A stretch of DNA of 64,000 nt, from NCBI RefSeq assembly GCF_003591005.1, contig NZ_QYYD01000023.1:1-64000 (forward strand), read 5' to 3'. The DNA is from Rhodopseudomonas palustris. GTDB taxonomy: Bacteria > Pseudomonadota > Alphaproteobacteria > Rhizobiales > Xanthobacteraceae. Below, in pieces: positions 6,526 to 62,531 of this stretch (position 1 is its first letter; each line of letters starts with the position of its first letter). Below the pieces are notes generated by a model. It did no database searches. It worked only from the letters and a program-made list of their open reading frames with translations, and was not told where the DNA came from. A program made the translations under genes and the position numbers.

Positions 6526-8283
<1,758 letters not shown>

Positions 8284-15646: not shown

Positions 15647-15801
15647 GTCGAACTCCTGAGTACCGGCCATTGCCGGCGTGATGCATCCCGAAAATTCGCC
15701 GCGCAGACGCGCGGCCGCGCGGAGACCCTGCTCCCCGCGCGTCAACACTCCCCGTGATTTCTTGAGCCCGCGGTTAGTCCGCGGGTCCTGATCGCGCCGC
15801 G

Positions 15802-47140: not shown

Positions 47141-47154
47141 CATCACTCCTTGGG

Positions 47155-47370
47155 CTTAGAGCCTGACTCAAAACTAAGGCCGAACACTCGGCCGCCTCTT
47201 GCAGTCGTTAGTTTGCTCAAAAATTCCGTCAGGGTCGGGCTTGTCCCGGCCATCCACACCTTGTCTGCATTGCCCTCAGCAAGGCGTGGAGGCCCGGTAC
47301 AAGGACGGGCATGACGCGCGGAGAGGGATGTCCTGATTTCAGAGGGCACATTTTCGGTCAGGCTGTTAAG
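47155..47370. repeat. MITE-like element, copy 3
   Basis: About 216 bp with ends CTTAGAGCCTGAC and, inverted, CTTAACAGCCTGAC, and the shared core palindrome (cgggcttgtcccggccatcc ... acgggcatgacgcg). Its right terminal repeat contains the stop codon of the LivF-type ATPase (TAA at 47366-47368). It separates the ABC operon from the amidohydrolase at 45692-47140. Confidence 0.85.
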
Positions 47371-48061
47371 AGAAATACGCGTCGGCGATCGCGTCGCTCG
47401 CCAGCGCATCGCTCATCGCGCCGCGCCAGGCGACGCGGCCGGTCGCCAGCACGATGCAGTCGTCGGCGAGCGCGCGGGCGATCTCGAGATTCTGCTCGAC
47501 CAGCAGAATGCCGATGCCGCGCTCGCGAATCTGCTGCACGATGCCGATCATCGACCGTGTGATGCCGACCGCGAGGCCGGCAGACGGCTCGTCCAGCAGC
47601 ATCACTTTCGGATTGGTGATCAGCGCGCGGCCGATCGCCAGCATCTGTTGCTCACCGCCGGACAACGAGCCGGCGAGCTGCGACTTGCGCGATGCCAGCG
47701 CCGGAAACATTTCGTAAATGGTGTCGAGCGGCAGCGGCGGCCGGCCGCGCGGCGCCGACATCCCGGCGCGCAGAGTTTCGTCGACGCTGAAGTTCGGGAA
47801 CAGCTCGCGCCATTGCGGCACCAGCGCGAGTCCGCCGCGCACGATGGTACTCGCGGGCTTGCGGGTGATGTCGCGGCCATCGAAGGTCACGCGGCCACCC
47901 GACGCCGGCAGCAGCCCGGCGATCGCTTCGACGCTCGAGGTCTTGCCTGCACCGTTAGCTCCGAGCAGCGCCAGGCATCGGCCGCTCTCGATCTCCAGAT
48001 CGAGCGCGTGCACCACTTCGACCGAGCCGTACGCGACCTTCAAATTTTCGACGCGCAGCAT
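47366..48061 (-). CDS. ABC transporter ATP-binding protein, LivF type
   Basis: A 231-aa ATPase: Walker A GANGAGKTS, Q-loop LVPQWRELF, signature LSGGEQQML, Walker B VMLLDEPSAG, H-loop LVEQNLE. Its ATG shares one base with the stop of the fused LivM-LivG gene (TGATG), so they are translated together. The stop lies within the terminal repeat of the neighbouring MITE-like element, which may have replaced the original C-terminus. Confidence 0.93.
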   Translation of the reverse strand: MLRVENLKVAYGSVEVVHALDLEIESGRCLALLGANGAGKTSSVEAIAGLLPASGGRVTFDGRDITRKPASTIVRGGLALVPQWRELFPNFSVDETLRAGMSAPRGRPPLPLDTIYEMFPALASRKSQLAGSLSGGEQQMLAIGRALITNPKVMLLDEPSAGLAVGITRSMIGIVQQIRERGIGILLVEQNLEIARALADDCIVLATGRVAWRGAMSDALASDAIADAYFS

Positions 48062-49866
48062 CACGCGGCCTCTTCGACTTCGCCGAAATAGATCCGGCGG
48101 ACATCCTTGCGGGCGATCACGTCCGCGGGATCGCCTTCCGCGATCAATCGGCCGTTGGCCATCACCGACAGGCGGTCGCACAGCGACGCAAGAAAGCCGA
48201 TGTTGTGCTCGACCACCAGCATGGTGGCGCCGAGCTCGGCGTTCAGCGACTTAAGTAACTGCACGATCTGCTCGACCTCGTGATGGCTAACGCCGGACAC
48301 CGGTTCGTCGAGCAGGATCAGCCGCGGTCGCGACACGATCGCGCGGGCGATCTCGAGCCGGCGCTGATCGCCGAGCGACAGCTTGCCGGCTGGCGCGTCG
48401 ATCAGTCCGCCAAGCCCGACGGCGCCCAGTGCCCACCTCGCCTGCTCGTCTTCGCGGCGGCTGGCGGCGCCGGCCAGCGCCCAGTCGAAGCTGCGGCGCA
48501 GCGAAGCCCCGACCTGATTGCGCCCGAGGCCGACGATGACGTTCTCGCGGCAGGTCAGCGTCGGGAAGATCGCGACGTTTTGGAACGTCCGCGTCACGCC
48601 GAGGCTGGCGCGGTCCTCGACGCGTCCGCGGGTGACGTCCTCGCCGAACAGATGCACCGCGCCTTCGTCGGGACGAACGAAACCGGAGACCATGTTGAAT
48701 AGCGTGGTCTTGCCTGCGCCATTCGGCCCCATCACGCCGTGCAGGCTGCCGACGGCGACATCGAGGTCGACATGATCGACCGCCGTCAGCGCGTCATAGC
48801 GCTTGACCACGCCGGTGGTGATCAGCGCGCGGTCGGTGGTCGCTGTCCACGACGAAGTTCGGGCCGGCGCAGCAATCGTTGCCGCCCTACCCACGGCGGG
48901 CTCCGGGCCAATGACCCGCACACCGCTTGCCTGCCGCCGGCTGAACCGCGCGAACAGATCGGTCAGGCCGCCGCGAAAGTACACGATGATCACCAGCACG
49001 ATTGCCGACAGGATCAGCTCGATAAAGCCGGCGATCGGTCGCAGCACTTCCGGCAAAATCCGCAGCAGGCTGCCGCCGAGCGCCCCACCCCACACCGATC
49101 CGAGGCCGCCGACGATCGGATAGGCCAGGTTGAGGATCGACGTGTGCAGGCCGAAGCTTTCCGGATCGATGATGCGAAACCGCGGCGCGCTCACCGCAGC
49201 CGCCATCGCCACGGCGGCCGAACTCACTGCAAAGGCGGCGATCAGATAGTGCTCGGGCCGGATTCCGAACGCGCGGGCGCCGACCTCGTTGATCGCCAGC
49301 GCGCGCAGGTTCTTGCCGAACGGGCCATAAAGCAGGATCAGCAGCGGCATCATCGCCAGCGCGCAGAACACCGCGGCGACGACGAGGTTGGCCATGTCGG
49401 ACGTGATGGCATGGCCGAAGATCGTCGGTACCGGCACGTTGAGGCCTTCGGCGCCGCCGCTCAGCCCCTTGCTCTCGCGGATCGCGATGATGACGATCGA
49501 CTGAAAAACCAGTGTCACCAGCGCGAGATTGTGGCCGCGAAACCGCACCGCCGGCACCGCAAGCACAATTCCCGCAACTGCGCCGACGATGCCGGCAACC
49601 AGCACCGCGATCGGAAAAGGGCAGACCAGATGGATCATCAGCAGCGCTGCGGTGTAGGCCCCCAGCGCCTGAAACGCACCGGTCGCCAGCGAAATGCAGC
49701 GCGCGAAGCTGATCAGCACCGTCAGCCCCATGCCGATGATGATCGCGGTGGCCGCGAGCGACAGCACGTAGCGCCAATAGTCATTGGCCAGCGCGCCGAC
49801 GACCAGGAACGCCGCGAGCACTGCCGCCGGAACGACGAAGATGTTGATCAGACGGCGGTCAGACAT
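48061..49866 (-). CDS. fused LivM-type permease and LivG-type ATPase
   Basis: A 601-aa protein. Residues about 1-300 are a LivM-type membrane permease (about eight hydrophobic segments; LVSLVFQSIVI-like helix; GGLGSVWGGALGG). A ~45-residue Ala/Arg/Thr-rich linker follows. Residues about 350-600 are a LivG-type ATPase: Walker A GPNGAGKTT, signature LSLGDQRRLEIA, Walker B LILLDEPVSG, H-loop VVEHNIGF. In most transporters these are separate genes. No stop or frameshift separates the halves. ATG 49866 overlaps the LivH gene by 8 bp. Confidence 0.92.
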   Translation of the reverse strand: MSDRRLINIFVVPAAVLAAFLVVGALANDYWRYVLSLAATAIIIGMGLTVLISFARCISLATGAFQALGAYTAALLMIHLVCPFPIAVLVAGIVGAVAGIVLAVPAVRFRGHNLALVTLVFQSIVIIAIRESKGLSGGAEGLNVPVPTIFGHAITSDMANLVVAAVFCALAMMPLLILLYGPFGKNLRALAINEVGARAFGIRPEHYLIAAFAVSSAAVAMAAAVSAPRFRIIDPESFGLHTSILNLAYPIVGGLGSVWGGALGGSLLRILPEVLRPIAGFIELILSAIVLVIIVYFRGGLTDLFARFSRRQASGVRVIGPEPAVGRAATIAAPARTSSWTATTDRALITTGVVKRYDALTAVDHVDLDVAVGSLHGVMGPNGAGKTTLFNMVSGFVRPDEGAVHLFGEDVTRGRVEDRASLGVTRTFQNVAIFPTLTCRENVIVGLGRNQVGASLRRSFDWALAGAASRREDEQARWALGAVGLGGLIDAPAGKLSLGDQRRLEIARAIVSRPRLILLDEPVSGVSHHEVEQIVQLLKSLNAELGATMLVVEHNIGFLASLCDRLSVMANGRLIAEGDPADVIARKDVRRIYFGEVEEAA

Positions 49867-50746
49867 GTCGTCGTTTCGCTTCCGGGAATAGTCCCTCCGG
49901 TCGCACCAGCAGGACGCAGAACAGAATGAAGAAGCTGATCGCCGTACCCAACGTGCTGGAGACATAGGCCGCCGCCAGCGTCTCGATGATTCCGAGCAGG
50001 ATGCCGCCGATCAGCGCACCGCCGAGCGAATCGAAGCCGCCGATCACCGCGGCGATGAAGGCCGACGAGATGATGAACACCGCAAGATCCGGCGAGACGC
50101 CCTTGCTCGGGGCCGCAAACGCGCCGGCGAGCCCGGCGAGCGCCGAGCCGAGAAACCAGGTGGTGACGTAGACTCCTTCGACCGAGTAGCCGCACAGCTG
50201 CGCACCGCGGCTGTTCGACGCCATCGCCCGCATGCTGCGGCCGAGCGGCAGGTAGCGGAACGTCACCAGCGCGGCGAGGCCGGTCGCGAGCGCGCCGAGC
50301 GTGACCCAGAGCTGCTCGCGTGTGACGATCACCACCGAGCCGCCGAACTCGATCAGGAACGGGCGGCCCTTGAACACCGCGGGCACGGCGAGCAGTTCGG
50401 AATTCTCGGCAAGCCGAAACGCCTCGGACAGCAGCGTGCCGAGGAAGATCGTGCCGACGATGACGATGAATAAATCGGCCTTGCGCAGCGGCCGGAGCAC
50501 CGAGATCTCGAGGAACGCACCGAGCGCGCCGATGAGGATCGGCACCAGCACATAGGCGGTCCAGTACGGCCATTCATAGACGACGACGATCTGGTAAGTG
50601 GCAAACGCGCCGAGCATGACCAGGCCGCCATGCGCGAAGTTGACCGTTCTGGTGGCCTTGTGAATGACCACCAGTCCGATCGCTGCGAGTGCATAGACGG
50701 CGCCGATCTTGGCGCCGCCCAGCAGTGTCATCAGCAGTTCGGCCAT
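49859..50746 (-). CDS. ABC transporter permease, LivH type
   Basis: A 295-aa membrane permease with about eight hydrophobic segments and the LivH motif TVNFAHGGLVMLGAFATY; later GGFDSLGGALIGGILLGIIE and the C-terminal LLVRPEGLFP are typical. It heads the membrane part of the importer and follows the solute-binding protein gene by 25 bp. Confidence 0.93.
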   Translation of the reverse strand: MAELLMTLLGGAKIGAVYALAAIGLVVIHKATRTVNFAHGGLVMLGAFATYQIVVVYEWPYWTAYVLVPILIGALGAFLEISVLRPLRKADLFIVIVGTIFLGTLLSEAFRLAENSELLAVPAVFKGRPFLIEFGGSVVIVTREQLWVTLGALATGLAALVTFRYLPLGRSMRAMASNSRGAQLCGYSVEGVYVTTWFLGSALAGLAGAFAAPSKGVSPDLAVFIISSAFIAAVIGGFDSLGGALIGGILLGIIETLAAAYVSSTLGTAISFFILFCVLLVRPEGLFPEAKRRHV

Positions 50747-50771: not shown

Positions 50772-51959
50772 TCAGTCGACGACCTGCCAGATGCCGTCCT
50801 TGATCTTGGCCCGGCCCATCACCCGGTTGCCCTGATGATCGGTCTCGGAGAACGACTCCGGATAGATGACGTCGGCGCCGCCGAGCTTGGACGGCTTGGC
50901 ATCCTTGAGATTGCTCCACGAGGCGATCAGGCTCTTCCAGGTCAGGTCCTGGCCGGCATTCTTGATCGCCTGGGCCAGCACGTAGGTGCCGCCATAGGCG
51001 ACGAGGTCGTAGATGTTCGGGCGGCCCTGCGGCGGCTGGCCGAAGCGCTGAATCCAGGCGTCGCGAAATTGCTTCATCGCCGGCACCGCCTGCGCGGGGA
51101 AGAACGGCGTGTTCGAATAGCCCCAGACGTTGGGCGGGTTCTTCTCGCCGAGAATCGGCACGATGGCGTCGTTGACGGCAGAGCCGTCGAGCACCCAGAC
51201 GACGTCCGACAGCCCCTTCTCGGGCGCCTGCTTCATCGCGAAGCCGGCTTCGGCGAAGCTGCCGAGCACGATCACCGCATCGACCCGGTCGCGGGCGAAC
51301 TTGATCAGCTGCGAGGTGAAGTCGCGCGCGCCCTGGTCGAATTCCTCGACCACCGTCTCCACCGGCAGCTTGCCCAGGATCGGCATCACCGCCGCCTTGT
51401 TGGCCTGCGGAAACGCGTAGGTGCCGATCAGCAGGCCGATCTTCTTGGCTTTCGGATTGGCCTGGAATACGCGATCGACCAGCGCCTGAGCGGAATCCGC
51501 CGAGGACGGCATCGCGCTGTGGAACACATTGGCGGCGAATGGCGTCCGGATGATCGGGGTCGCGCCGAACAGATTGTAGGTCGGAATCCCCTTCTCGCGG
51601 ACGTAGTCGGCCGCCGCGGCGGCGCCGGTGCTGCCGGACGCCAGAACCAGCAGGAACACACCGTCGCTTTCGACCAGCTTCTTGGCCGCCGCGACGCTCT
51701 CGGCCGGCGTGAAGGCGTGCTCGAAATTCAGCTTCAGCTTGCGCCCATTGATGCCGCCGGCCTGATTGATCTGTTCGATGGCGAGTTGCATGCCATCACG
51801 GCCGGGCACGCCCATGAACGACGTAGCGCCCGTCAGCGGCCCCACCGCGCCGACCGTCACCTCGGTCGCCGTCACGCCCGGCGACTGCGCGGCCGCCGGC
51901 AGGGGAAGTAACGCCAACGCAGCTGCGATCAGCGGGAGAGAGCGTTTCAAGCGAAGCAT
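50772..51959 (-). CDS. solute-binding protein of a branched-chain-amino-acid-type ABC transporter
   Basis: A 395-aa periplasmic protein (Peripla_BP_6). Sec signal peptide: LKRSLPLIAAALALLPLP, cut near AAA-QSPG. VTVGAVGPLTGATSFMGVPG opens the mature domain and GVFLLVLASGSTGAAAAADY lines the cleft. AGGAG precedes ATG 51959. The 155-bp gap upstream contains a two-box operator (52100-52130), so the transporter genes have their own promoter. Ligand not predictable; the family binds amino acids, amides and aromatic acids. Confidence 0.92.
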   Translation of the reverse strand: MLRLKRSLPLIAAALALLPLPAAAQSPGVTATEVTVGAVGPLTGATSFMGVPGRDGMQLAIEQINQAGGINGRKLKLNFEHAFTPAESVAAAKKLVESDGVFLLVLASGSTGAAAAADYVREKGIPTYNLFGATPIIRTPFAANVFHSAMPSSADSAQALVDRVFQANPKAKKIGLLIGTYAFPQANKAAVMPILGKLPVETVVEEFDQGARDFTSQLIKFARDRVDAVIVLGSFAEAGFAMKQAPEKGLSDVVWVLDGSAVNDAIVPILGEKNPPNVWGYSNTPFFPAQAVPAMKQFRDAWIQRFGQPPQGRPNIYDLVAYGGTYVLAQAIKNAGQDLTWKSLIASWSNLKDAKPSKLGGADVIYPESFSETDHQGNRVMGRAKIKDGIWQVVD

Positions 51960-52099
51960 TCGTTTGGACTCCTGTCAGTCACCAGATCATCGCTCGGATC
52001 GTAGCAACAACCGTACCACCAGCTTAATCATTGAAATTGCTGCTTAATTTTGATCGACACGGAAATCTCGCCAGTGCGCCCCGATCGATCAGGCAGCAA

Positions 52100-52130
52100 C
52101 TGCATGCTATTTCATCATTTTTGCATACAA
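52100..52130. promoter_or_regulatory. two-box GntR-type operator, site A
   Basis: CTGCATGCTA (52100-52109) and TTGCATACAA (52121-52130), centres 21 bp apart. It is about 140-170 bp upstream of the solute-binding protein gene and overlaps the last codons of the CoxL-like gene. Confidence 0.7.
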
Positions 52131-54445
52131 ATTTCTGCCGTCCTGATGGCGGCGAAGACTTTTTCCGGCGTGAGCGGCATATCGAGATGGCGAACACCAA
52201 GGGGCGCAAGCGCGTCCAGCGCCGCATTGACGAAGGCCGGGCTGCTGCCGGTTGCGGCCGACTCGCCAATCCCCTTCACCCCCAGCGGGTTGCTATCGTC
52301 CCATTGCTGCGACAATCGGGTGCCGATGGTCGGCAGGTCCGCTGCGCGGGCGACGCCATAGTCCATCAGGCTGCCGCTCATCAGCTGCCCGTCGGATGCG
52401 TAGGCAATGCGCTCGCTCCACGCTTGCCCAATGCCTTGAGCCACGCCGCCGTGCAGCTGTCCGGTCACCAGCATCGGGTTGATGATGCGGCCGGCGTCCT
52501 GCGCGACGCCGAAGGCGACGATCGTGACGTCTCCCGTATCCGGATCGACTTCGACCTCGCAAGCATGACAGCCGATCGGCAGGCCCTGCCCGCTGCCGTC
52601 GAAGCTCGCCGACACCGCGAACTCCGGCTCGGCCTCGAAGATCTCGCTCCACCCGACGACGCGGTTTGTCACCGAGGCGCGGAACAGGCCATCCGAAAAT
52701 GCAACGTCGCTGCTACCACAATCCAGCAGCCGCGCCGCGATGCTCTTCGCAGCTTCGACCGCTCGCGCTGACGCCACATGCACCGACGAGCCGCCCAGCG
52801 TCAGGGACCACGAAGCTGCCGTCCCGACGCCGTCGGGGATCTGCGCGGTGTCGGATTGAACGAAAGCGAGCCGTGCCAGCGGCAGCCCGAGGCATTGCGA
52901 CGCGATCTGCAGAAAGCTGGTCTCATGGCCATGGCCGGCGGAGCCCGACCCGACCATCACGGCGAGCTTGCCGCCGCGATGCCGCAGGTGCACCGGGATC
53001 GGCTCGTGCGAGCCGTGCAGATCTTCGGCATAGAGCGCGACGCCGAGACCGCGCAGACGGCCACGCTTGCGCGCCTGCTTGCGCCGAGCGGCGAAGCCGG
53101 CGTGATCGATACACGCCAGCGCATCGTCGAGCTTGGCGGCGAAGTCGGCCCGCTCGAACGTCGTCCCGAGCGGCGAGACGCAAGGCTGTGCGGCGAGCGC
53201 GATCAGGTTGCGCCGGCGCACGTCGATCGGATCGAGATTGTAGTCGCGCGCGATCACGTCGATCAGGCGCTCGCAGCACTGCACGTTTTCCGGCCGGCCG
53301 GCGCCGCGAAACGGGCTGGTGCAGGCGGTGTTGGTCAGTACGCCCTGCACCCGGGCATGCGCGGCCGGGATCGCGTACACCCCCGTGAGGTGCGTCAGAC
53401 CGTTGAGCACCGGCACGATCGCGCGCGGCGCGGTGTACGCGCCGATATTCATCAGCCGCGTCGCGCGGATGGCGCGGATGCGCGCCCCGGCATCGACGGC
53501 GGCCGCGATCGTGAAGACGTTGTCGCGGCCATGGCAGTCGCTCTGCAACGCCTCGGAGCGCTCGGCGACCCACTTCACCGCACGGCCGAGCCGGCGCGCC
53601 GCCTCCAGGCACAGCACGTATTCGGGATACAGACCATTCTTCTGGCCGAACCCGCCGCCGGTGTCGGGCGCAACGACGCGCATCCGCTCTCGGCCGACCT
53701 TGAAGACACGATCGGCCAGCGCCCGCTGCAGGATGTGAACGCGCTGCGTGCTGACATACAGCGTAAAGTCGCCGCCGGCGAAAGCGCCGACACAGGCACG
53801 CGTTTCCAATGGCAAAGCATCGATGCGGTTGGAGACGACGTCGAGCTCGATGACCCGATCCGCGGTCGCAAACGCCGCATCGACGGCGTCGGCATCGCCC
53901 TCGTGGTGATCAAACACGACGTTCGTGGCGCTGCCGCTCCAGGCCAGCACCTGATCCGACAGCGCCTCCGTGGGATCGACGATCGCCGGCAGGATGTCGT
54001 AATCGGCGACGATCGCCTCCGCGGCATCGCGCGCCTGCACCAGCGTTTCTGCGACCACGAATGCGACCGTGTCGCCGACAAAACGGACGAAGCCGTCAGC
54101 AAGGATCGGCTGCTCGGCGCAATGTGCATGCGGCACCGGCTCGCCCGGCGGCGGGATATCGAGCGGCACCTTCGACAGGCCGGCTTCCCGCAGATCCGAG
54201 TAGCTCAGAACGAGCCGGACACCCGGCATCGCCCGGACAACTTCGAGATCGAGGCCGGTCAGCCGCGCGTGGCCGTGCGGCGAGCGCAAAACGACGCCAT
54301 GCAGCACGTCTGGCAGATCGAGATCATCGAGAAAGCGGCCATGGCCGCGCAGAAACCGGTCGTCCTCGAGGCGCCGAACGCTTTGTCCGATCAGCTCGGT
54401 GGTTCGTGAAGGATCCTGCTCCTGCTCGCCTCTTGGCTGGTTCAT
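52115..54445 (-). CDS. CoxL-like molybdopterin-binding large subunit
   Basis: A 776-aa catalytic subunit of the xanthine-dehydrogenase family. Features: IGQSVRRLEDDRFLRGHGRF at the N-terminus (CoxL/CutL style), GGGFGQKNG, the active-site loop TSPFRGAGRPENVQ (not the AYxCSFR loop of true CO dehydrogenase) and GVKGIGESAATGSSPAFVNA. No Tat signal, so it should be cytoplasmic. No medium (FAD) or small (2Fe-2S) subunit gene is adjacent, which is unusual. It overlaps the M20 hydrolase gene by 4 bp (ATGA). Expected reaction: hydroxylation of an N-heterocycle or aldehyde. Confidence 0.9.
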   Translation of the reverse strand: MNQPRGEQEQDPSRTTELIGQSVRRLEDDRFLRGHGRFLDDLDLPDVLHGVVLRSPHGHARLTGLDLEVVRAMPGVRLVLSYSDLREAGLSKVPLDIPPPGEPVPHAHCAEQPILADGFVRFVGDTVAFVVAETLVQARDAAEAIVADYDILPAIVDPTEALSDQVLAWSGSATNVVFDHHEGDADAVDAAFATADRVIELDVVSNRIDALPLETRACVGAFAGGDFTLYVSTQRVHILQRALADRVFKVGRERMRVVAPDTGGGFGQKNGLYPEYVLCLEAARRLGRAVKWVAERSEALQSDCHGRDNVFTIAAAVDAGARIRAIRATRLMNIGAYTAPRAIVPVLNGLTHLTGVYAIPAAHARVQGVLTNTACTSPFRGAGRPENVQCCERLIDVIARDYNLDPIDVRRRNLIALAAQPCVSPLGTTFERADFAAKLDDALACIDHAGFAARRKQARKRGRLRGLGVALYAEDLHGSHEPIPVHLRHRGGKLAVMVGSGSAGHGHETSFLQIASQCLGLPLARLAFVQSDTAQIPDGVGTAASWSLTLGGSSVHVASARAVEAAKSIAARLLDCGSSDVAFSDGLFRASVTNRVVGWSEIFEAEPEFAVSASFDGSGQGLPIGCHACEVEVDPDTGDVTIVAFGVAQDAGRIINPMLVTGQLHGGVAQGIGQAWSERIAYASDGQLMSGSLMDYGVARAADLPTIGTRLSQQWDDSNPLGVKGIGESAATGSSPAFVNAALDALAPLGVRHLDMPLTPEKVFAAIRTAEICMQK

Positions 54446-55707
54446 GCGCGGCCCGCGCCTTCGTCGCCTTGGCTGGCGAGCGCCATGGTGACGTCCGCGA
54501 GGACGCGCGCGCCGGCCGTGACGTGATCCGGCTCGGCCCACTCCGCCGGGTTATGACTGATGCCGCCGCGGCACGGGATGAAGATCATCCCGGTCGGGCA
54601 GATGTAGTGCAGCTGCCGCGCATCGTGCCCCGCCGCCGAGTAGATCGGCATCGCCGGAAGTTCGGCCGCCTCGGCGGCCGTGGTAATCGCGGCGCGGATC
54701 TGTGGCGCAAAATCCAGTGATGGCGCGTGCGCGATCTGATCGAGCGTGGCGCTGCACGGACCGCACTCGTCCGCGACGATGCGGCGGATTTCGGCATCGA
54801 TGCGATCCACCACGGCGTCGTCGACGTGACGCAGATCGATCGAGAAATACGCTTCCTCCGGCACGACCGACGGCGCGTTCGGTGTCAGCCGCATCATGCC
54901 GACCGTCAGCATCACGTCCGCCGGATCGCTCGCGACGGCGTCGATCGCGCGGATCATCCGTACCGCAGCCATCAGCGCATCCTTGCGCTCGGCCCGCAGC
55001 GTCGTGCCGGCATGCGCCGCCTCGCCGCGCACGCGGACCCGGTAGCGGCGCGTGCCCTGAATGCCGGTGACCACACCGATCGGAACGCCGGCACGCTCGA
55101 GCAGCGGCGCCTGCTCGATATGCGCCTCGACGAAGGCCGCCGGCCGCCAGCCGAACGGCCGCTGCGGCACGTCGACATCGCGCGCCAGGACACGTTCCGC
55201 CGCTTCGCGCACGGTGCATCCCGCTGCGTCCGTGACGGCCAGCAGCGTCTCCAGCGGCTTGACGCCGGCGAACGCTTCAGAGCCGGACATGCCGGGCGCA
55301 AAGCGCGAGCCCTCTTCGTTGGTCCACGCCACCACTTCGATCGAGCGCAACGGCTGCTCGCCGCTGGCGCGGATCGCCTCGATCACTTCGAGAGCGGCCA
55401 GCACCCCGAACGCGCCATCGAACTTGCCGCCTGTCGGCTGCGAGTCGATATGCGAGCCGATCAGCACCGGCGACAGATCGGGGCGGCTGCCCTCCAGCCG
55501 CAGGAACAGGTTGGCGATCGGATCGGTGAACGGCTGCAGACCAAGCTCACGTCCCCAGCCGATCAGTTGCGCGCGCGCCTCGGCTTCCACGTCGGACAAT
55601 GCCGGGCGATCGACGCCGCCATCCGCCCGCGCGCCATAGTTCGCCAGCAGCATCAGGCGATCCCACAGCCGCTGTCCGTTGACGTGATGCGAAAGGCGCT
55701 GCCGCAT
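54442..55707 (-). CDS. M20-family N-carbamoyl-amino-acid hydrolase / allantoate amidohydrolase type
   Basis: A 421-aa dinuclear-metal amidase. Metal ligands: IGSHIDSQPTGGKFDGAFGV (His, Asp), WTNEEGSRF (Glu pair), EAHIEQAPLLE (His) and SAAGHDARQ (C-terminal His). This order defines the Zn-dependent hydantoinase/carbamoylase group, which releases NH3 and CO2 from carbamoyl or ureido acids. Start at ATG 55707, five bases after the upstream stop; a TTG three codons earlier is possible. Suggests that a ureido- or carbamoyl-type intermediate occurs in the pathway. Confidence 0.92.
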   Translation of the reverse strand: MRQRLSHHVNGQRLWDRLMLLANYGARADGGVDRPALSDVEAEARAQLIGWGRELGLQPFTDPIANLFLRLEGSRPDLSPVLIGSHIDSQPTGGKFDGAFGVLAALEVIEAIRASGEQPLRSIEVVAWTNEEGSRFAPGMSGSEAFAGVKPLETLLAVTDAAGCTVREAAERVLARDVDVPQRPFGWRPAAFVEAHIEQAPLLERAGVPIGVVTGIQGTRRYRVRVRGEAAHAGTTLRAERKDALMAAVRMIRAIDAVASDPADVMLTVGMMRLTPNAPSVVPEEAYFSIDLRHVDDAVVDRIDAEIRRIVADECGPCSATLDQIAHAPSLDFAPQIRAAITTAAEAAELPAMPIYSAAGHDARQLHYICPTGMIFIPCRGGISHNPAEWAEPDHVTAGARVLADVTMALASQGDEGAGRA

Positions 55708-55712
55708 ATGGA

Positions 55713-56594
55713 TCAATCGGTCCGCATGATCTGGGCAGGATTGGCGCGTGGATCGCGCGGCCCCCACTGCCCGGCCTCGACCTGAGCGACGAACTCCGCG
55801 AGCAGACGGTTGAACAGCTCCGGCTCTTCGAGATTGAGAGTGTGGCCGGATTTCGGAAACACCGCGAAGCCACAGCGCGGGATCGTCAGCTTCAGGAACA
55901 TGCCGGGGCGCAGGCAGTGGTCGTCCTCATCGCCGACCATCACCAGCACCGGCAATTGCATGCGCCGAAACTCGTCCGCAAGATCGTACAGCGACGGCCG
56001 GCGCATCTGCACGCCGATCATGGTGTTGGCCGCCCCGATCGAGGAATGCTGCGCGAGCCGATCGGCGAACAGCTGCCAGCCGCGCGGATCTTTGGCCTGA
56101 AACTGGACGCGCGAGGCGCCCTCGGCATAGGTCGGCGCGAACGACTTGGCGCCGAGTTCGCGAAAGTTCCTGGCGACCTGCTCGGAGATGCCGCGGAAGT
56201 AGTCCTCGTGCTCCTTCTCGGCGCCATATCCGGCACCGGCCGCAACGATCGACAGCACCCGGCCCGGGTGACGCAGACCGACGTGAAGCGCCGCGAAGCC
56301 ACCCATCGACAGCCCGACCACGTGCGCCTTGTCGATGCCGGCGGCGTCCATCACCGCAATGACATCGTCGGCGGCGTGCGCCTGCGAATACGCCGCGTCG
56401 TCCTCCGGGATATCCGACGGCGGAAAGCCGCGCGCCGCGAAGGTGACGCAGCGATGCCGCCGCGCAAAGAAGTTCATCTGCGGCTCCCAGCTCCAATGGT
56501 TGCCGCCGAACTCGTGCACAAACACGATAGCGGAGCCGGTCCCCGCGGTTTCGTAGAACAGCTTCACTCCATCATCGGTCGTCGCGAAGGCCAT
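55713..56594 (-). CDS. alpha/beta hydrolase, 3-oxoadipate-enol-lactonase-like
   Basis: A 293-aa hydrolase: oxyanion IVFVHEFGGNHWSWE, nucleophile VVGLSMGGFAA with Ser, acid in MVGDEDDHCL and catalytic His in PKSGHTLNLEEPE. Similar to enol-lactonases and C-C hydrolases that act after ring opening. It lies 8 bp after the SDR gene and 5 bp before the M20 hydrolase, inside one operon. Substrate unknown. Confidence 0.88.
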   Translation of the reverse strand: MAFATTDDGVKLFYETAGTGSAIVFVHEFGGNHWSWEPQMNFFARRHRCVTFAARGFPPSDIPEDDAAYSQAHAADDVIAVMDAAGIDKAHVVGLSMGGFAALHVGLRHPGRVLSIVAAGAGYGAEKEHEDYFRGISEQVARNFRELGAKSFAPTYAEGASRVQFQAKDPRGWQLFADRLAQHSSIGAANTMIGVQMRRPSLYDLADEFRRMQLPVLVMVGDEDDHCLRPGMFLKLTIPRCGFAVFPKSGHTLNLEEPELFNRLLAEFVAQVEAGQWGPRDPRANPAQIMRTD

Positions 56595-56602
56595 GATGGA
56601 CC

Positions 56603-57385
56603 TCAGACGATCGAGCGGCGTGAGGCGATGCCGCCGTCGACCGTGATGATCGTGCCCGACGTGTAGCCGGAACGCTCGGAGGCGAGAAACAGGAACAGAT
56701 CGGTGATCTCGCGGACCGACGCCGCCCGCTTCAGCGGGTAGCGCTCGACCAGTTCCTGATAGCGATCGGCATCGCCAAGGTCCGACGCCGCGCGCTTGCG
56801 CAGCATGTTGTAGATCCGCGACGTATCGACCGGCCCCGGATTGACGCCGACCACGCGGATGTTGTCGTCGAGGCTGGTACCGCCGAGCGCGCGGGTGAAG
56901 GCCATCAGACTGGCGTTGGCGGTGGCGCCGGCGATGTAGGCGGGATCGCAGACTTCGCCGCCATTGCCGATATTGTTGAGGATCACGCCGCCGCCACGCG
57001 CCTTCATCTTGGGATAGATCGCGCGGGTGAGATCGACGTAGCCGAAGCCCTTGAGAGCCCAGCCCGTCTTCCAGGCGTCACTGTCGACCTGCCACAGATA
57101 GCCGCTCGGCACGGTGCCCGCGTTGTTGATCAGGACATCGACGTCGCCGGCGGCGTCGGCAACCGCGTCGGCCGCGCCGTCCGCGGTCAGGTCGATCGGC
57201 TGCACCGTGACCTGCACGGGATGCTTGGCGGACAACTCCGACCGCAATTGCTCGAGCACGTCGGCCGAGCGGGCGGTCAGATGCAGATCGCAACCTTCTT
57301 CCGCGAAGGCCTTCGCCAGCCCTTCGCCGATACCCTGCGAAGCGCCGGTGATGAGCACCTTCTTTCCATTCAGGTTGAGATCCAT
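56603..57385 (-). CDS. SDR-family oxidoreductase
   Basis: A 260-aa short-chain dehydrogenase. Cofactor motif TGASQGIGEG, NNAGTV, and C-terminal YTSGTIITVDGG. The usual catalytic YxxxK is not plainly kept: the segment after NNIGNGGEVCD reads PAYIAGATANASLMAFTR, with Tyr but Asn/Ala in place of Lys. It may thus be a noncanonical SDR. Located 52 bp after the aminotransferase gene. Confidence 0.85.
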   Translation of the reverse strand: MDLNLNGKKVLITGASQGIGEGLAKAFAEEGCDLHLTARSADVLEQLRSELSAKHPVQVTVQPIDLTADGAADAVADAAGDVDVLINNAGTVPSGYLWQVDSDAWKTGWALKGFGYVDLTRAIYPKMKARGGGVILNNIGNGGEVCDPAYIAGATANASLMAFTRALGGTSLDDNIRVVGVNPGPVDTSRIYNMLRKRAASDLGDADRYQELVERYPLKRAASVREITDLFLFLASERSGYTSGTIITVDGGIASRRSIV

Positions 57386-57437
57386 TTCTCACGTCTCCAT
57401 GGGTTGATCATTGCCGGCCGGACGGCAGAGCGCCCGC

Positions 57438-58571
57438 TTAGAACAGCTTGACTGCCTCGTTCATGCCGCGCGCACGGTCCAGCATCTCGGGAAGCGTCGC
57501 GGCGAATTCCTCGACCCACTCTGCAGGCACGGTCGTGCTGACCTTGACGAAGCGGTCGCCGAAATTCGGAGTGTGATACGAGCCCTGCCTGATCATGATG
57601 CCGCGCTCCTGATAGCAGGCGACCAGCGCTTCGGGCCGCACGCCGGCACCGGCGCACTCGAGCACGATGAAATTGCCGTTCGAAGGAAACACAGGCATGA
57701 GCAGGCCCGGCAGGCCGTCGACCGCCCTTTTGATACGCGCCTGATTGTCGCGCTGGTTCTGCAGCACGGCGGGAAACCATTCGGCCTTGGTGCCGAGGCC
57801 GGCGATCGCGGCGCGCTGGCCGAGCACGTTGGAGCCGAGAATGTTCGACGGCGCGGCGGCGAGCCGCTCGGCGATGTCCGGCGACGTCACCAACGCGCCG
57901 ACGCGGAGTCCGGCCATGCCGAGCCATTTCGAGCAGCTGTAGATCGTGATGGTCCGATCAGGCATCAGCTTGGCGGCGAGCGTGTGCGAATAGGCGAAAT
58001 CACGATAGGTGCAGTCGTGGATCAGCGTCGCCCCGCTCTGCCGCACGATCGCGCAGATCGCCTCGATCTCCTGCGGCGTACAGGCGGTGCCGAGCGGATT
58101 GTTCGGATCGACCAGATACACGACCTTGGTGCGCGGCGTGATCGCCGCCGCGAGCCGCTCCGGCGCGAGACGATAATTGTGCTCCTCGCCGTAGATCGGG
58201 ATCTGCTTGACGTCAGCACCGACCGACCTGGCAAACACCATCGGCCAATTCCAGGTCGGATCGGTGGTGATCAGCTCATCGCCGGGGCCGAGCAGGGTTC
58301 TGCAGGCATGCGACAGCCCGGCGACGGCGCCGTCGCTGACCAGCACCGCCTGGTCCAGCAGATCGAGGTCGGCCGCAATGCCGTGACGCAGCGCTTCAAA
58401 GCCGACCGGCGGCGCGTAGACGTGAAACTCCTCGTCACGAATACAGCGCTGCATCGCCTCGATCACTGCAGGATGCGGGGTCGCGTGATTGGTATTCTGC
58501 CCAAGCCACTTCAATTCCCGGGTGTTGGTCAGACGGTCGAAATGAGCATTTCGCATCTCGAACGCACGCAT
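57438..58571 (-). CDS. PLP-dependent aminotransferase, fold type I
   Basis: A 377-aa class I/II aminotransferase. Asn/Pro motif DPNNPLGTACTP, IHDCTYRDFAY (Asp and Tyr that bind PLP), Schiff-base Lys in YSCSKWLGMAGLRVG, and the carboxylate-binding Arg in PNFGDRFVKVS. ATG 58571 with AGGAG six bases upstream. First gene of the minus-strand catabolic operon, divergent from the GntR gene; operator site B lies between. Amino donor and acceptor not predictable. Confidence 0.93.
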   Translation of the reverse strand: MRAFEMRNAHFDRLTNTRELKWLGQNTNHATPHPAVIEAMQRCIRDEEFHVYAPPVGFEALRHGIAADLDLLDQAVLVSDGAVAGLSHACRTLLGPGDELITTDPTWNWPMVFARSVGADVKQIPIYGEEHNYRLAPERLAAAITPRTKVVYLVDPNNPLGTACTPQEIEAICAIVRQSGATLIHDCTYRDFAYSHTLAAKLMPDRTITIYSCSKWLGMAGLRVGALVTSPDIAERLAAAPSNILGSNVLGQRAAIAGLGTKAEWFPAVLQNQRDNQARIKRAVDGLPGLLMPVFPSNGNFIVLECAGAGVRPEALVACYQERGIMIRQGSYHTPNFGDRFVKVSTTVPAEWVEEFAATLPEMLDRARGMNEAVKLF

Positions 58572-58645
58572 TTTGTGCTCCTGGGCAGTCTCTAGGGCTT
58601 GCGGATCGACCGATCCGATCGAATAATTAGCCGATAACAAGATTT

Positions 58646-58676
58646 CTGCATGCAGACAACGATATTTTGTATGCAG
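58646..58676. promoter_or_regulatory. two-box GntR-type operator, site B
   Basis: CTGCATGCAG (58646-58655, a perfect palindrome) and TTGTATGCAG (58667-58676), centres 21 bp apart. Between the divergent aminotransferase and gntR genes. Confidence 0.75.
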
Positions 58677-58708
58677 GTATAATTACCCCTGAATCGGAAG
58701 TTTTGACG

Positions 58709-59413
58709 ATGACCAAAGTCGAGCCGGAGACGCCGGCGCCAGCCCGCAGCACCACGCGCGCCGAAACCCTACGCCGGTCGCTCGAGGAAATGATCATGAG
58801 CGGCGCGCTCAAGCCGGGCGATCGATTGGACGAAACCGAGCTGGCGACACGCTTCGAAGTCTCGCGCACGCCTGTCCGCGAGGCTCTGAAATCACTTCTG
58901 GCGACTGGGCTGGTGGAGATGTCGGGGCGGCAAGGATTGACCGTGGCGGCGATCTCGATCGGGACGCTGCTGGAGATGTTTCAGCTGATGGCCGAGCTCG
59001 AGGGGCTTCACGCCAAGCTGGCGGCGCGACGGGCCTCGTTGCCGCAGCGAGAACGCATGATCGCCGCGCATGAGCAGCTGAAGAAGACGCTGGAACGCGG
59101 TGATCCGCAGCTGTTCTACGACGTCAACCGCGAATTTCACGAAGCCATTTACGAGGCCTCGCAGTCGGAATTCCTGGCCGACCAGACTCGCGCACTGCGG
59201 CGCCGCGTCGCTCCCTATCGCCGCTACGTGACTTACCAGCCGGGCCGGATGGCGGCCACGATCACCGAGCACCAACGCATCCTCGACGCCATCATGAGCG
59301 CCGACGGCGAGGCCGCCCAGCGGGCGGCGCGCGATCACGTCAACCTCCTCGGAGATAACCTCGCGGACTTCATCGCCTCCTTGCCGCCGGAAATGACGCG
59401 AAAGAGCGCATAA
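58709..59413 (+). CDS. GntR-family regulator, FCD subfamily
   Basis: A 234-aa regulator. N-terminal winged helix: RRSLEEMIMSGALKPGDRLD, then ETELATRFEVSRTPVREALK. The C-terminal all-helical FCD domain has the expected metal/ligand residues (DVNREFHEAIY, then TEHQRIL). ATG 58709 is used; an upstream TTG would lie inside the operator. It is flanked on both sides by copies of the same two-box operator, so autoregulation and control of neighbours are likely. FCD regulators usually bind organic acids made by the pathway. Confidence 0.93.
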   Translation: MTKVEPETPAPARSTTRAETLRRSLEEMIMSGALKPGDRLDETELATRFEVSRTPVREALKSLLATGLVEMSGRQGLTVAAISIGTLLEMFQLMAELEGLHAKLAARRASLPQRERMIAAHEQLKKTLERGDPQLFYDVNREFHEAIYEASQSEFLADQTRALRRRVAPYRRYVTYQPGRMAATITEHQRILDAIMSADGEAAQRAARDHVNLLGDNLADFIASLPPEMTRKSA

Positions 59414-59416
59414 TTC

Positions 59417-59447
59417 GAGTATACAAAAAGGCTATTCTTGCATACTC
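59417..59447. promoter_or_regulatory. two-box GntR-type operator, site C
   Basis: GAGTATACAA (59417-59426) and TTGCATACTC (59438-59447), centres 21 bp apart and together forming an inverted repeat. Between gntR and the first amidohydrolase gene. Confidence 0.72.
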
Positions 59448-59479
59448 TCGTGGCGACGTGGGCAAGGAGCAACGATGCT

Positions 59480-60943
59480 ATGGAAACCACACACGGCCGC
59501 ACCAAGATCGTCGGCGGGATGGTCATCGCCTTCCGGGACGGAGCACACCACTTGCTCGAGGATGGCGTCGTGGTTTTCGAGGGCGACACGATCGTCCACG
59601 TCGGTCCCAGCTATGACGGCCCCGCCAACCAGGTGGTCAACGCCGCCGGGAAGCTGATCTTTCCGGGTTTCGTTTCGACCCACGCCCACGTCAACGTTCA
59701 CGAAGGCACGAGGCTGATCACCGACGTCGGCCGACGCGACGTGATGCGCTCCGGCTTTCTCAACTACACGCCGAACAACGGCCCCGACGGTCCCCCCTAT
59801 GTGGCGGCGGCGATCGCGGAGGATTCGATCCGATTCGGCTTCGCCCAGCTGATCCGCAACGGCATCACCACGGCCATGGCCTTCGGCGGCGGCACCCCTG
59901 CCGCTGCCGACACTTTCGCAGCTCTCGCCGGCGAAAGCGGCATCCGGACTTACTACGCTCCGCAGGCCAGCTCGGCGGTGAACTATTTCACCGACGAAGG
60001 ACGCATGGTTGAAAAGTGGGACGAGGCCAACGGTCATGCCGAGCTTGATCGCCAGGAAGCGTTCATCGACGCCCATCACGATACGTTCGACGGGCGCTTC
60101 AAGGGCATCGTCGTCATTCGCAACTTCATCCTGGCGACGATCGAGTTGATGCAGCGCGGCAAGGAGATCGCCGATCGCAGAAACCTGCGCATGACAACGC
60201 ATTTTTGCGAACAGCTGTTCGAATTTCATCGCATCGTTCGGGATTACGGCATCACCCCGGTCGATCTGATGGAGCGCGAAGGCCTGCTCGGCGAGAACGT
60301 GCTCCTCGCTCATGCGATCTATCTGGCAGGCCACTCCTACACGACCTGGGAGTATTCCAACGACCTCGAGATCCTCGGTCGAACCCGCACCGCTGTGTCG
60401 CACGCCCCGCTGGTGATGCTGCGCCGAGGCCATGCGCTCGAAGGCTTCGACCGCTATCTGCAGCACGGCGTCACGATGTCGATCGGCACCGACGTCATGC
60501 CGCACGACATCATTTCCGAAATGCGGGTCGGGGCGCTGGCCTGCAAGCTGATCGCCCGCAATCATGAGGTTGGCACCTCACTCGATTTCTTCAACGCCGC
60601 GACGCTCGGCGGCGCCAAGGCGTTCGGCCGCGACGACATTGGCCGGATCGCGGTCGGCGCCAAAGCCGATATCGTGGTGATGGACTTCGACAATCTTCAG
60701 ATCGGACCGGTCTACGACCCGATCCGCAGCCTGGTGCATCTCGCCTCGCCGGATCTGATCGACCATGTGATCTGTGACGGACGTTTCCTGATGCGCGATC
60801 GGGTCCTGCAAGGCTACGACGAAGCCGCGGTCGTCGCAGGCGGCAAGCGGTCGTTCCAGCGAGTGCTCGACGAATTTCCGCAGCGACACTGGTCAAAGCG
60901 CTCGGTTGAGAACGAATACCCAAAATCACTGTCAAAATTCTGA
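59480..60943 (+). CDS. amidohydrolase-family protein, first of a tandem pair
   Basis: A 487-aa metal-dependent hydrolase. HxH in FVSTHAHVNVHEG, HFCEQLFEF, VSHAPLVMLRRG and the catalytic Asp in SIGTDVMPHD; the composite beta domain closes with VGAKADIVVMDFDNL. This is the cytosine deaminase/atrazine chlorohydrolase-like group. ATG 59480 follows AAGGAGC by about 10 bases. It is strongly similar along its length to the gene at 61083-62531, so they arose by tandem duplication. Confidence 0.92.
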   Translation: METTHGRTKIVGGMVIAFRDGAHHLLEDGVVVFEGDTIVHVGPSYDGPANQVVNAAGKLIFPGFVSTHAHVNVHEGTRLITDVGRRDVMRSGFLNYTPNNGPDGPPYVAAAIAEDSIRFGFAQLIRNGITTAMAFGGGTPAAADTFAALAGESGIRTYYAPQASSAVNYFTDEGRMVEKWDEANGHAELDRQEAFIDAHHDTFDGRFKGIVVIRNFILATIELMQRGKEIADRRNLRMTTHFCEQLFEFHRIVRDYGITPVDLMEREGLLGENVLLAHAIYLAGHSYTTWEYSNDLEILGRTRTAVSHAPLVMLRRGHALEGFDRYLQHGVTMSIGTDVMPHDIISEMRVGALACKLIARNHEVGTSLDFFNAATLGGAKAFGRDDIGRIAVGAKADIVVMDFDNLQIGPVYDPIRSLVHLASPDLIDHVICDGRFLMRDRVLQGYDEAAVVAGGKRSFQRVLDEFPQRHWSKRSVENEYPKSLSKF

Positions 60944-60970
60944 GTGCAAATTTTGCATTTCTGCATACAC
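60940..60970. promoter_or_regulatory. two-box GntR-type operator, site D
   Basis: CTGAGTGCAA (60940-60949, weaker) and CTGCATACAC (60961-60970), centres 21 bp apart, in the gap between the two amidohydrolase genes. Confidence 0.6.
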
Positions 60971-61082
60971 AATGGGCATTTTCGAGCCCTCCCCGCCGAG
61001 CTGAGGCCGAAACGTCAATGATATCAAGTGACTACAAACCGGCACGCGACTTGCTCAACCCACCTAGGGCAGGAGGCTGAGC

Positions 61083-62531
61083 ATGCGAACGAAGATCTCG
61101 GGCGGTACGGTGATCGCCCACAAAGATGGCGGCCACCGCGTGCTCGACCCGGGCGTCGTGGTGTTCGACGATGACCGTATCGTCAGCGTCGGCCCCAGCT
61201 ATGACGGACCTGCCGACAAGACCGTCAACGCTGCCGGCAAGCTGGTGATCCCCGGCTTCGTCTCGACCCATGCCCACGTCAACGCCCACGAAGGCTCGCG
61301 GCTGATCACCGACCTCGGCCGCCGCGACGTGATGCGATCCGGCTTTCTCAACTACACGCCGAACGGCGGCCCCGAGGGCCGCCCGATCGTGGCAGCAGCC
61401 TCTCCCGAGCATTCGATCCGGTTCGGCTTCGCCCAGATGATCCGCAACGGCGTCACCACCGTGCTGTCGTTCGGCGCCGGCAGCCGCGACGATCCGAAAC
61501 TGATGACCGATCTGGCTGAAGAAAGCGGCCTGCGCGTGTACTACGCACCCCAATGCACCGCTGCTGAGAATTTCTTCGACGCCGACGGCCGGCTGCGGCC
61601 CTCTTGGGATGAAGCCACCGGCTTTGCGCAACTCGAGCGCGCCGCGCGCTATGTCCAGGACCATCACGGCAAGTTCGACGACCGCCTGCGCGGCCTGATC
61701 AACGTCCGCAACTACGTTCTGGCCACGGTGCCGCTGATGCGCCGGGCCAAACAACTCGCCGACGACCTCGGGGTGCAGTTCACCACGCATTTCTGCGAGC
61801 AGCTGTTCGAATTCCACGAGACCGTCCGCAATTACGGGATCACGCCGGTCGACCTGATGGACGCCGAGGGGCTGCTCGGCCCCAACGTGATCCTGGCGCA
61901 TTGCGTGTACATCGCCGGACACTCATCGACAACCTGGGAATACAGCAGCGACCTCGAGAAGCTCGGCCGCAGCAAGTCCGTCGTCTCGCATGCGCCGGTC
62001 GCCTATCTGCGCCGCGGCTACAATCTCGAAGGCTTCGAGCGCTACCTCGCCCACGGCGTCACGATGTCGATGGGCACCGATGTGATGCCGCACGACATGC
62101 TGGGCGAAATGCGCGCCGGCGCGCTGGCCGCGAAGTGGTTCGGCAAGAACCACGAGGTCGGCACCGCCGCATCGTTCTTCGACGCAGCGACGCTTGGCGG
62201 CGCCACCGCGTTCGGTCGTGACGACATCGGCCGGCTGGCGGTCGGCGCCAAGGCCGACATCGTCGTGCTCGACTTCGACAACATGCAGATCGGCCCGGTC
62301 TACGACCCGATCCGCAGCCTGGTGCATCTCGCCTCGCCGGACCTGATCGAAACGGTGATCTGCAACGGGCGAACGCTGATGCAGGAGGGCGTTCTGACCA
62401 ACTACGACGAACGCGCCGTCGTCGCGGGTGGCAAGCGCTCATTCGCGCAGGTCGTCGATCAATTCCCACAGCGGCACTGGTCCGGCCAGTCGATCGACGA
62501 GGTGTTTCCGACTTCATATCCGCGCTGGTGA
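61083..62531 (+). CDS. amidohydrolase-family protein, second of a tandem pair
   Basis: A 482-aa paralogue of the preceding gene with the same motif order: STHAHVNAHEGSRLI, TTHFCEQLFEF, HAPVAYLRRG, GTDVMPHDMLGEM and the C-terminal GAKADIVVLDFDN. AGGAGG five bases before ATG 61083 is strong. It has its own upstream operator copy. The pair may differ in substrate: the segment after FGAG/FGGG (residues about 130-200) is the most variable between them. Confidence 0.92.
   Translation: MRTKISGGTVIAHKDGGHRVLDPGVVVFDDDRIVSVGPSYDGPADKTVNAAGKLVIPGFVSTHAHVNAHEGSRLITDLGRRDVMRSGFLNYTPNGGPEGRPIVAAASPEHSIRFGFAQMIRNGVTTVLSFGAGSRDDPKLMTDLAEESGLRVYYAPQCTAAENFFDADGRLRPSWDEATGFAQLERAARYVQDHHGKFDDRLRGLINVRNYVLATVPLMRRAKQLADDLGVQFTTHFCEQLFEFHETVRNYGITPVDLMDAEGLLGPNVILAHCVYIAGHSSTTWEYSSDLEKLGRSKSVVSHAPVAYLRRGYNLEGFERYLAHGVTMSMGTDVMPHDMLGEMRAGALAAKWFGKNHEVGTAASFFDAATLGGATAFGRDDIGRLAVGAKADIVVLDFDNMQIGPVYDPIRSLVHLASPDLIETVICNGRTLMQEGVLTNYDERAVVAGGKRSFAQVVDQFPQRHWSGQSIDEVFPTSYPRW

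Follow-up and report, generated by a model that had tools for sequence, protein, structure and literature searches.

Box pairs spaced 21 bp apart around a gntR gene of Rhodopseudomonas palustris as candidate double operators of an FCD-type regulator

Box pairs and the units that they precede

A stretch of 64,000 nucleotides from Rhodopseudomonas palustris (assembly GCF_003591005.1, contig NZ_QYYD01000023.1; genome size 5.62 Mb), called the window throughout, carries a gene cluster around a gene for a GntR-type regulator with an FCD domain (gntR). An earlier note on this DNA had pointed out four pairs of 10-bp boxes within the cluster and had assigned them to a regulon of the GntR protein. All four pairs were found where the note had placed them, with a distance of exactly 21 base pairs (bp) from box to box, and each precedes the unit named for it: the transporter operon, the aminotransferase operon together with gntR, amidohydrolase 1 and amidohydrolase 2. 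The boxes and the genes next to them are listed below, together with the pairs at syntenic positions in a locus of Bradyrhizobium sp. dw_78 (L046).

50772-51959, minus strand: binding protein of a branched-chain-type ATP-binding cassette (ABC) transporter (Pfam Peripla_BP_6, 2.3e-51)
52100-52109: pair 1, box a, CTGCATGCTA; syntenic pair in L046 at 3236
52121-52130: pair 1, box b, TTGCATACAA; within the 3' end of the preceding gene
57438-58571, minus strand: pyridoxal phosphate (PLP) aminotransferase, leading the minus-strand operon (NF004870, 458.9 bits, cut-off 351)
58646-58655: pair 2, box a, CTGCATGCAG; aminotransferase operon on one side and gntR on the other; syntenic pair in L046 at 9877
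58667-58676: pair 2, box b, TTGTATGCAG; TATAAT starts one base downstream
58678-58683, plus strand: TATAAT, likely the sigma-70 -10 element of gntR, 25 bp 5' of the gntR ATG; a clear -35 element was not seen
58709-59413, plus strand: gntR, GntR-FCD regulator of 234 amino acids (Pfam GntR 1.9e-18, FCD 1.5e-28)
59417-59426: pair 3, box a, GAGTATACAA; gntR stop codon 3 bp before; position matches that of the pair in relatives
59438-59447: pair 3, box b, TTGCATACTC; near-copy of box a, inverted
59480-60943, plus strand: amidohydrolase 1 (Pfam Amidohydro_1, 3.8e-36; 67% identity to amidohydrolase 2)
60940-60949: pair 4, box a, CTGAGTGCAA; weak, overlaps the stop codon of amidohydrolase 1
60961-60970: pair 4, box b, CTGCATACAC; stronger syntenic pair in L046 at 12190
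61083-62531, plus strand: amidohydrolase 2 (Pfam Amidohydro_1, 4.1e-39)

The start of pair 1 lies 140 bp from the start of the transporter binding-protein gene, and pair 3 is situated close upstream of amidohydrolase 1. The box form YTGYATRCAR given in the earlier note proved too strict: three of the eight boxes match it exactly, two have one mismatch and three have two. A lone good box, TTGCATGCCA, occurs within the binding-protein gene at 51786-51795, where a strong partner is absent.

Taken singly, boxes with up to one mismatch are about as frequent in the window as expected (16 vs 12.2 +/- 3.6); what stands out is their pairing. When the core TGYATRCA was searched with at most two mismatches per pair, four pairs were obtained at 21 bp, whereas the 52 other spacings in the range from 8 to 60 bp averaged 0.10. 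Since this core was derived from the finding itself, an independent matrix was built from 26 distinct boxes of other loci, with the window and L046 excluded. Under this matrix, pairs 1, 3 and 2 are the top three 21-bp pairs in the window (22.2, 20.3 and 19.4) and outscore the pairs of the same rank at all of the 288 other spacings (288/288); box b of pair 1 (52121) is the top single box of the window. In 300 dinucleotide shuffles, 21-bp pairs scoring at least 19 were obtained at a rate of 0.007 per shuffle, with a maximum of one in any. The claim that the repeated spacing is unlikely by chance thus stands for pairs 1-3, against shuffles as well as other spacings, but not for pair 4 taken alone, whose score is at chance level.

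Across the genome, the pair pattern with at most two mismatches is found at eight places, four of which are the window pairs, so that 21-bp pairs are not frequent at random positions. Allowing three mismatches resulted in 30 places compared to 22 for a reversed control, and the loose pattern therefore has little specificity. Of the four remaining places with at most two mismatches, two (L006 and L007) fall within long open frames; another (L003) sits between the two longest frames, overlaps short ones only and lacks an evident link. The place designated L008 (L108:7587-7617, at about 51587 of C91) has a pair score of 25.2 with the independent matrix and lies upstream of an ABC transporter gene, frames having been chosen by reading. 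Its locus, L108, contains its own FCD gene (C91:49696) as well as nitrilase-like and thiamin-precursor-like genes (names other than FCD by reading). The strong pair and the FCD gene of this locus suggest that the 21-bp doublet may also serve a second regulator of this genome, likewise of the FCD type.

The regulator itself scores well above the cut-offs for both domains (PF00392, 66.3 bits, cut-off 27; PF07729, 100.1 bits, cut-off 24.3). An AlphaFold model of the protein, calculated as a monomer, reached a mean predicted local distance difference test (pLDDT) value of 88.4, and the leading solved folds in Foldseek were 7u5q (template modelling score, TM, 0.83), McbR 4p9f (0.75) and the VanR-group protein Atu1419 6za7_A (0.65). 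The recognition-helix residues SRTPVREA are invariant across 27 aligned sequences. FCD domains bind metal through Asn/Asp and three His; the putative ligands N140, H144 and H188 are likewise invariant in the 27 sequences, and a further His near the end is present in 19 of 19 aligned sequences. For the FCD subfamily, a published comparative study describes operators with GT and AC boxes and 2-3 nucleotides between them (PMC4494728). In the window boxes, 2 nucleotides separate the G-Y and R-C halves; GT and AC are found on both sides in only one of the eight (59417), and in most boxes one or both sides read GC.

Conservation and co-occurrence with gntR

A total of 62 gntR loci were found, 61 of which were used; L106 was left out as it ends within gntR. 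Most have the order gntR, short-chain dehydrogenase, aminotransferase, hydrolase and M20 gene on one strand. In L046, the GntR protein is 80% identical and most of the cluster is conserved at 70-84% identity. Its three best 21-bp pairs (23.9, 20.4 and 17.8) correspond in place to pairs 1, 2 and 4. In loci of the Pseudomonas, Halomonas, Methylobacterium, Azorhizobium and Roseomonas type, 21-bp pairs adjoin gntR. Around gntR in 24 chosen loci there are 23 pairs with at most two mismatches at 21 bp, compared to a mean of 0.37 at other spacings and a highest count of 5 (at 25 bp).

Directly 3' of gntR, the sequence TGGYATRC-N3-TTGC is present in 59 of 61 loci and absent from L046 and L093. The search pattern fixed the left part of this element, and therefore only the right box counts as an independent result. 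The best second box, with spacings of 8-32 bp allowed, is located at 21 bp in 46 of 49 distinct elements, 22 of which, mostly from Bradyrhizobium, tie with another spacing; in the other three it is located at 22 bp. In a reverse test, a matrix made from 13 boxes of the window and L046 was applied to other genera and 50 spacings were compared. Here, 21 bp came out best for 18 of 26 regions that follow gntR and for 10 of 26 that precede it.

The gntR orthologue (E value at most 1e-57) is present in 21 of 296 sampled genomes of the family. The 21-bp element of the relatives was detected in 13 of the 296, in one copy each, and all 13 are among the 21 genomes with the orthologue; in every case (13/13) it lies 13 to about 225 bp past the end of the gntR match. 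It was not found in any of the 275 genomes without the orthologue, and a 20-bp version, searched with a slightly different pattern, was not found in any of the 296. Genome specificity, the retention of pairs 1, 2 and 4 in L046, the pairs adjoining gntR elsewhere and this co-occurrence together argue for the proposed regulon of the GntR protein.

Some loci show arrangements of more than two boxes. Upstream of gntR in L091, L095 and L097 there are apparently three successive boxes in steps of about 21-22 bp. In another group of FCD regulators (L034, L036, L121, L126 and L141), boxes upstream of gntR are 21 bp apart with a similar TGTCAATNATC between them, and L034/L121 has three successive boxes in 21-bp steps, the outer two being weak.

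The idea that FCD regulators as a group follow a 21-bp rule found no support: when paired palindromes were sought without a motif in 67 FCD upstream regions, 24 bp was the favoured spacing (6 cases) and 21 bp occurred once. Using TGYATRCA with at most three mismatches in FCD loci, 21 bp leads in both sets, with 6 vs a mean of 0.71 in 39 loci and 7 vs 0.76 in 28, several of these cases being mutual orthologues or one place counted in both sets; four of the six cases in the 39 loci are individually listed. At two mismatches in the 39 loci, 21 bp (1) trails 25 bp (2) and 38 bp (2).

Sigma-54-type promoters and the proposed double operator

The -24/-12 promoters of sigma-54 were searched with the consensus TGGYAYR-N4-TTGCW, which has 17 perfect matches in the genome compared to one for a reversed control. 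The element of the relatives, TGGTATGCAAATTGCT, also fits this consensus: its left box covers -24 and its right box extends from -5 to +5. A second sigma-54-type site is found on the opposite strand upstream of gntR in 47 of 62 loci and, in the loci examined, faces the divergent ABC transporter operon. The window contains two such sites.

52003-52018, minus strand: predicted sigma-54 -24/-12 type promoter of the transporter operon, TGGTACGGTTGTTGCT; perfect match, 43 bp before the binding-protein start
61040-61055, plus strand: sigma-54-like promoter of amidohydrolase 2, CGGCACGCGACTTGCT; one mismatch; L046 has CGGCACGGCTCTTGCT at 12278

The same kind of site as in front of the transporter operon is present in L046 (3145, minus strand). 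In the window, pair 1 is centred about 123 bp and pair 4 about 111 bp upstream of the respective predicted sigma-54 start; at pairs 2 and 3 there is no sigma-54 match with up to one mismatch. The exact NtrC-like sequence GCAC-N7-GTGC was not found in any of 143 segments upstream of sigma-54-like sites across the loci, and one-mismatch versions occur in 5 of 36 listed segments. One of these one-mismatch sequences, at about 3236-3250 in L046, overlaps the copy of pair 1, which recalls the shared HutC/NtrC sites of Pseudomonas.

We propose, with a probability of about 0.72, that the pairs are double operators of an FCD-type GntR repressor, which would be bound by two dimers side by side and control a partly sigma-54-dependent catabolic regulon. 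From what the sequences show (the pairs, their spacing and conservation, the co-occurrence with gntR and the sigma-54-type sites) we infer binding, repression, cooperation of dimers, an inducer and an activator, as follows. Each 10-bp box would be a palindromic site for one dimer of the GntR protein (58709-59413). Two dimers would be adjacent and assist each other's binding; a spacing of 21 bp, i.e. two helical turns, fits their location on one face of the DNA. Without inducer, the dimers would keep the transporter, aminotransferase and amidohydrolase units as well as their own gene, gntR, repressed. The inducer, which is probably the substrate of the cluster, a nitrogen compound, or else a compound of the pathway, would cause the release of the dimers. 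In the relatives, a pair lying over both the -24 element and the start could block the sigma-54 promoter directly, and bound dimers may act by simple blocking at the gntR promoter. Pairs 1 and 4 of the window, being upstream of the sigma-54-like starts, might act on the activator, by DNA looping or on a second promoter. Such action from upstream of the window's two sigma-54-like promoters is the weakest part of the mechanism.

Several observations weigh against this proposal. Pair 4, with a score of 10.9, has only rank 6 at 21 bp, is equalled at that rank by 6 of 288 other spacings, and is alone no better than chance; its inclusion is supported by its position and the stronger syntenic pair in L046. 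Pair 3 is without a counterpart in L046. Eight of the 21 orthologue-bearing genomes, including the one studied here, lack the exact element. Because it was defined on gntR loci of relatives, finding it at such loci was to be expected, and the informative result is solely that it is absent elsewhere. In the reverse test, a spacing other than 21 bp scores best in 8 of the 26 regions downstream and 16 of the 26 upstream of gntR. Bradyrhizobium loci have a single box upstream of gntR (one clear box in each of the two Bradyrhizobium upstream regions of the reverse test), and their second box downstream of gntR carries two core mismatches. Downstream of gntR, the spacing is 22 bp in L091, L095 and L097. 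Finally, a sigma-54 activator gene was not found near the cluster, the only GAFTGA-type motif in the window being far off at 7362.

The pairs might instead be upstream activating sites for a sigma-54 activator and have no relation to GntR. The distances of about 111-123 bp for pairs 4 and 1 are usual for such sites, L046 is alike in this respect, and its one-mismatch NtrC-like sequence overlaps the copy of pair 1. We nevertheless regard this possibility as very unlikely: the pair of the relatives overlies the sigma-54 promoter itself, pair 2 adjoins the TATAAT of gntR, and the element is confined to genomes with the gntR orthologue (13/13). In addition, a scan of the 62 gntR loci for GAFTGA-type motifs, which overlooks activator genes without the motif, yielded a sole match (L099, 15990) within a molybdenum-hydroxylase-like frame. 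It is also conceivable that the sigma-54 promoter, with its fixed distance from -24 to the start, dictates the spacing in the relatives and contact between dimers does not, given that 59 of 61 loci have the left box merged with the -24 element. This seems distinctly unlikely to us, since the 21-bp spacing also holds in the window pairs and in the pairs in front of gntR in relatives, none of which contains a perfect sigma-54 match, and since the second box coincides with the start site, for which sigma-54 is not known to require a sequence of this kind.

Mere chance in AT-rich promoter sequence, to which the score of pair 4 and the closeness of the three-mismatch genome count to its control (30 vs 22) would conform, is an extremely improbable explanation, being countered for pairs 1-3 by the shuffles, the other spacings, conservation and co-occurrence. 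A single tetramer could also bind each pair, or tetramers could loop between pairs as proposed for Atu1419. That protein, which is near our model in Foldseek (TM 0.65), is tetrameric and can loop sites 190 bp apart, but its two dimers are described as holding sites about 10 nm apart (PMC7797058), whereas we estimate about 7 nm for 21 bp of straight DNA. As looping moreover requires no single exact short spacing, we consider a tetramer unlikely and prefer two adjacent dimers.

In a wider form, which we advance tentatively and at somewhat less than even odds, a branch of the FCD-type GntR regulators would use a strict two-turn doublet that in many Proteobacteria is built on a sigma-54 promoter, with one dimer on -24 and one on the start. 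A local metabolite repressor would thus gate a globally activated promoter of the nitrogen type, and the 21-bp rule would perhaps also apply in L108.

Related systems and the remaining cluster genes

NanR of E. coli, another GntR regulator of the FCD type, reportedly has three GGTATA repeats that are closer together than the boxes described here. Like the arrangement proposed here, NanR involves several dimers that bind an array cooperatively, and longer spacers weaken binding; unlike it, NanR cooperates via an N-terminal extension of 32 residues (PMC8012715), whereas our protein has 16 residues before the first helix of the model. Atu1419 of Agrobacterium fabrum, a VanR-group FCD regulator, has the 10-bp palindrome ATGTATACAT as its published site and resembles the GntR protein of the window in its possibly related fold, its 10-bp palindromic operators, its repression of catabolic genes and the sites in its own promoter region, the latter two being proposed here likewise (PMC7797058). 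It differs in that its sites are 190 or 109 bp apart, with a tetramer proposed to loop them, and the accessible text describes neither a 21-bp doublet nor a sigma-54 promoter (PMC7797058).

HutC of Pseudomonas is also a GntR repressor with several bound species, and its footprint overlaps the sigma-54 site of a nitrogen-catabolic operon; however, it belongs to the HutC subfamily and not to the FCD group, and its 51-bp footprint is centred on one TGTA-N2-TACA site (PMC12977541). Double sites at a roughly constant distance have been described by comparative genomics for 29 divergons of the FadR subfamily, but that study analysed only divergent-operon intervals and, in the part available, does not state a 21-bp rule (PMC4494728). 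With these four precedents, the principle is already known. Literature searches on double operators of GntR proteins and on such proteins at sigma-54 promoters, as far as accessible, did not reveal a strict 21-bp FCD doublet or its fusion with sigma-54 promoters. The pairs would provide a testable operator code for an apparently uncharacterised but widespread regulator, and they may connect sigma-54 with a cluster that probably serves the catabolism of a nitrogen compound. They could also serve as a simple system to study cooperation of GntR dimer pairs and repressor control of a sigma-54 promoter, and the spacing rule might be used to seek further regulons of this GntR branch.

The following genes complete the cluster.

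47366-50746, minus strand: transporter permease, fused permease-ATPase and second ATPase (NCBIfam LivH/LivM/LivG/LivF-like matches, under curated cut-offs)
52115-54541, minus strand: molybdenum hydroxylase large subunit (Pfam MoCoBD_1, MoCoBD_2)
54442-55767, minus strand: M20 hydantoinase/carbamoylase-type amidase (TIGR01879, 383.6 bits, cut-off 204)
55713-56594, minus strand: alpha/beta hydrolase (Pfam Abhydrolase_1, 1.1e-24)
56603-57385, minus strand: short-chain dehydrogenase (NF004779, 385.9 bits, cut-off 261)

Judging by its gene content as a whole, the cluster probably serves to degrade a nitrogen compound; literature searches on its substrate gave no fitting publication. The cluster is rare: amidohydrolase 2 (E at most 1e-100) has no match in the 295 other sampled genomes of the family and is found in its own genome only. 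Among the transporter genes, a LivM-like permease and a LivG-like ATPase are fused in a single frame (48061-49965, minus strand), and beyond them lies a third amidohydrolase-like frame, assigned by reading (45692-47146, minus strand). The GAFTGA motif at 7362 belongs to what we take to be a NifA-like frame (6526-8283, minus strand), which is accompanied by a presumably NifB-like frame (4363-5916, minus strand). A further frame of the window, at 14261-15748, presumably encodes a form II RuBisCO-like protein.

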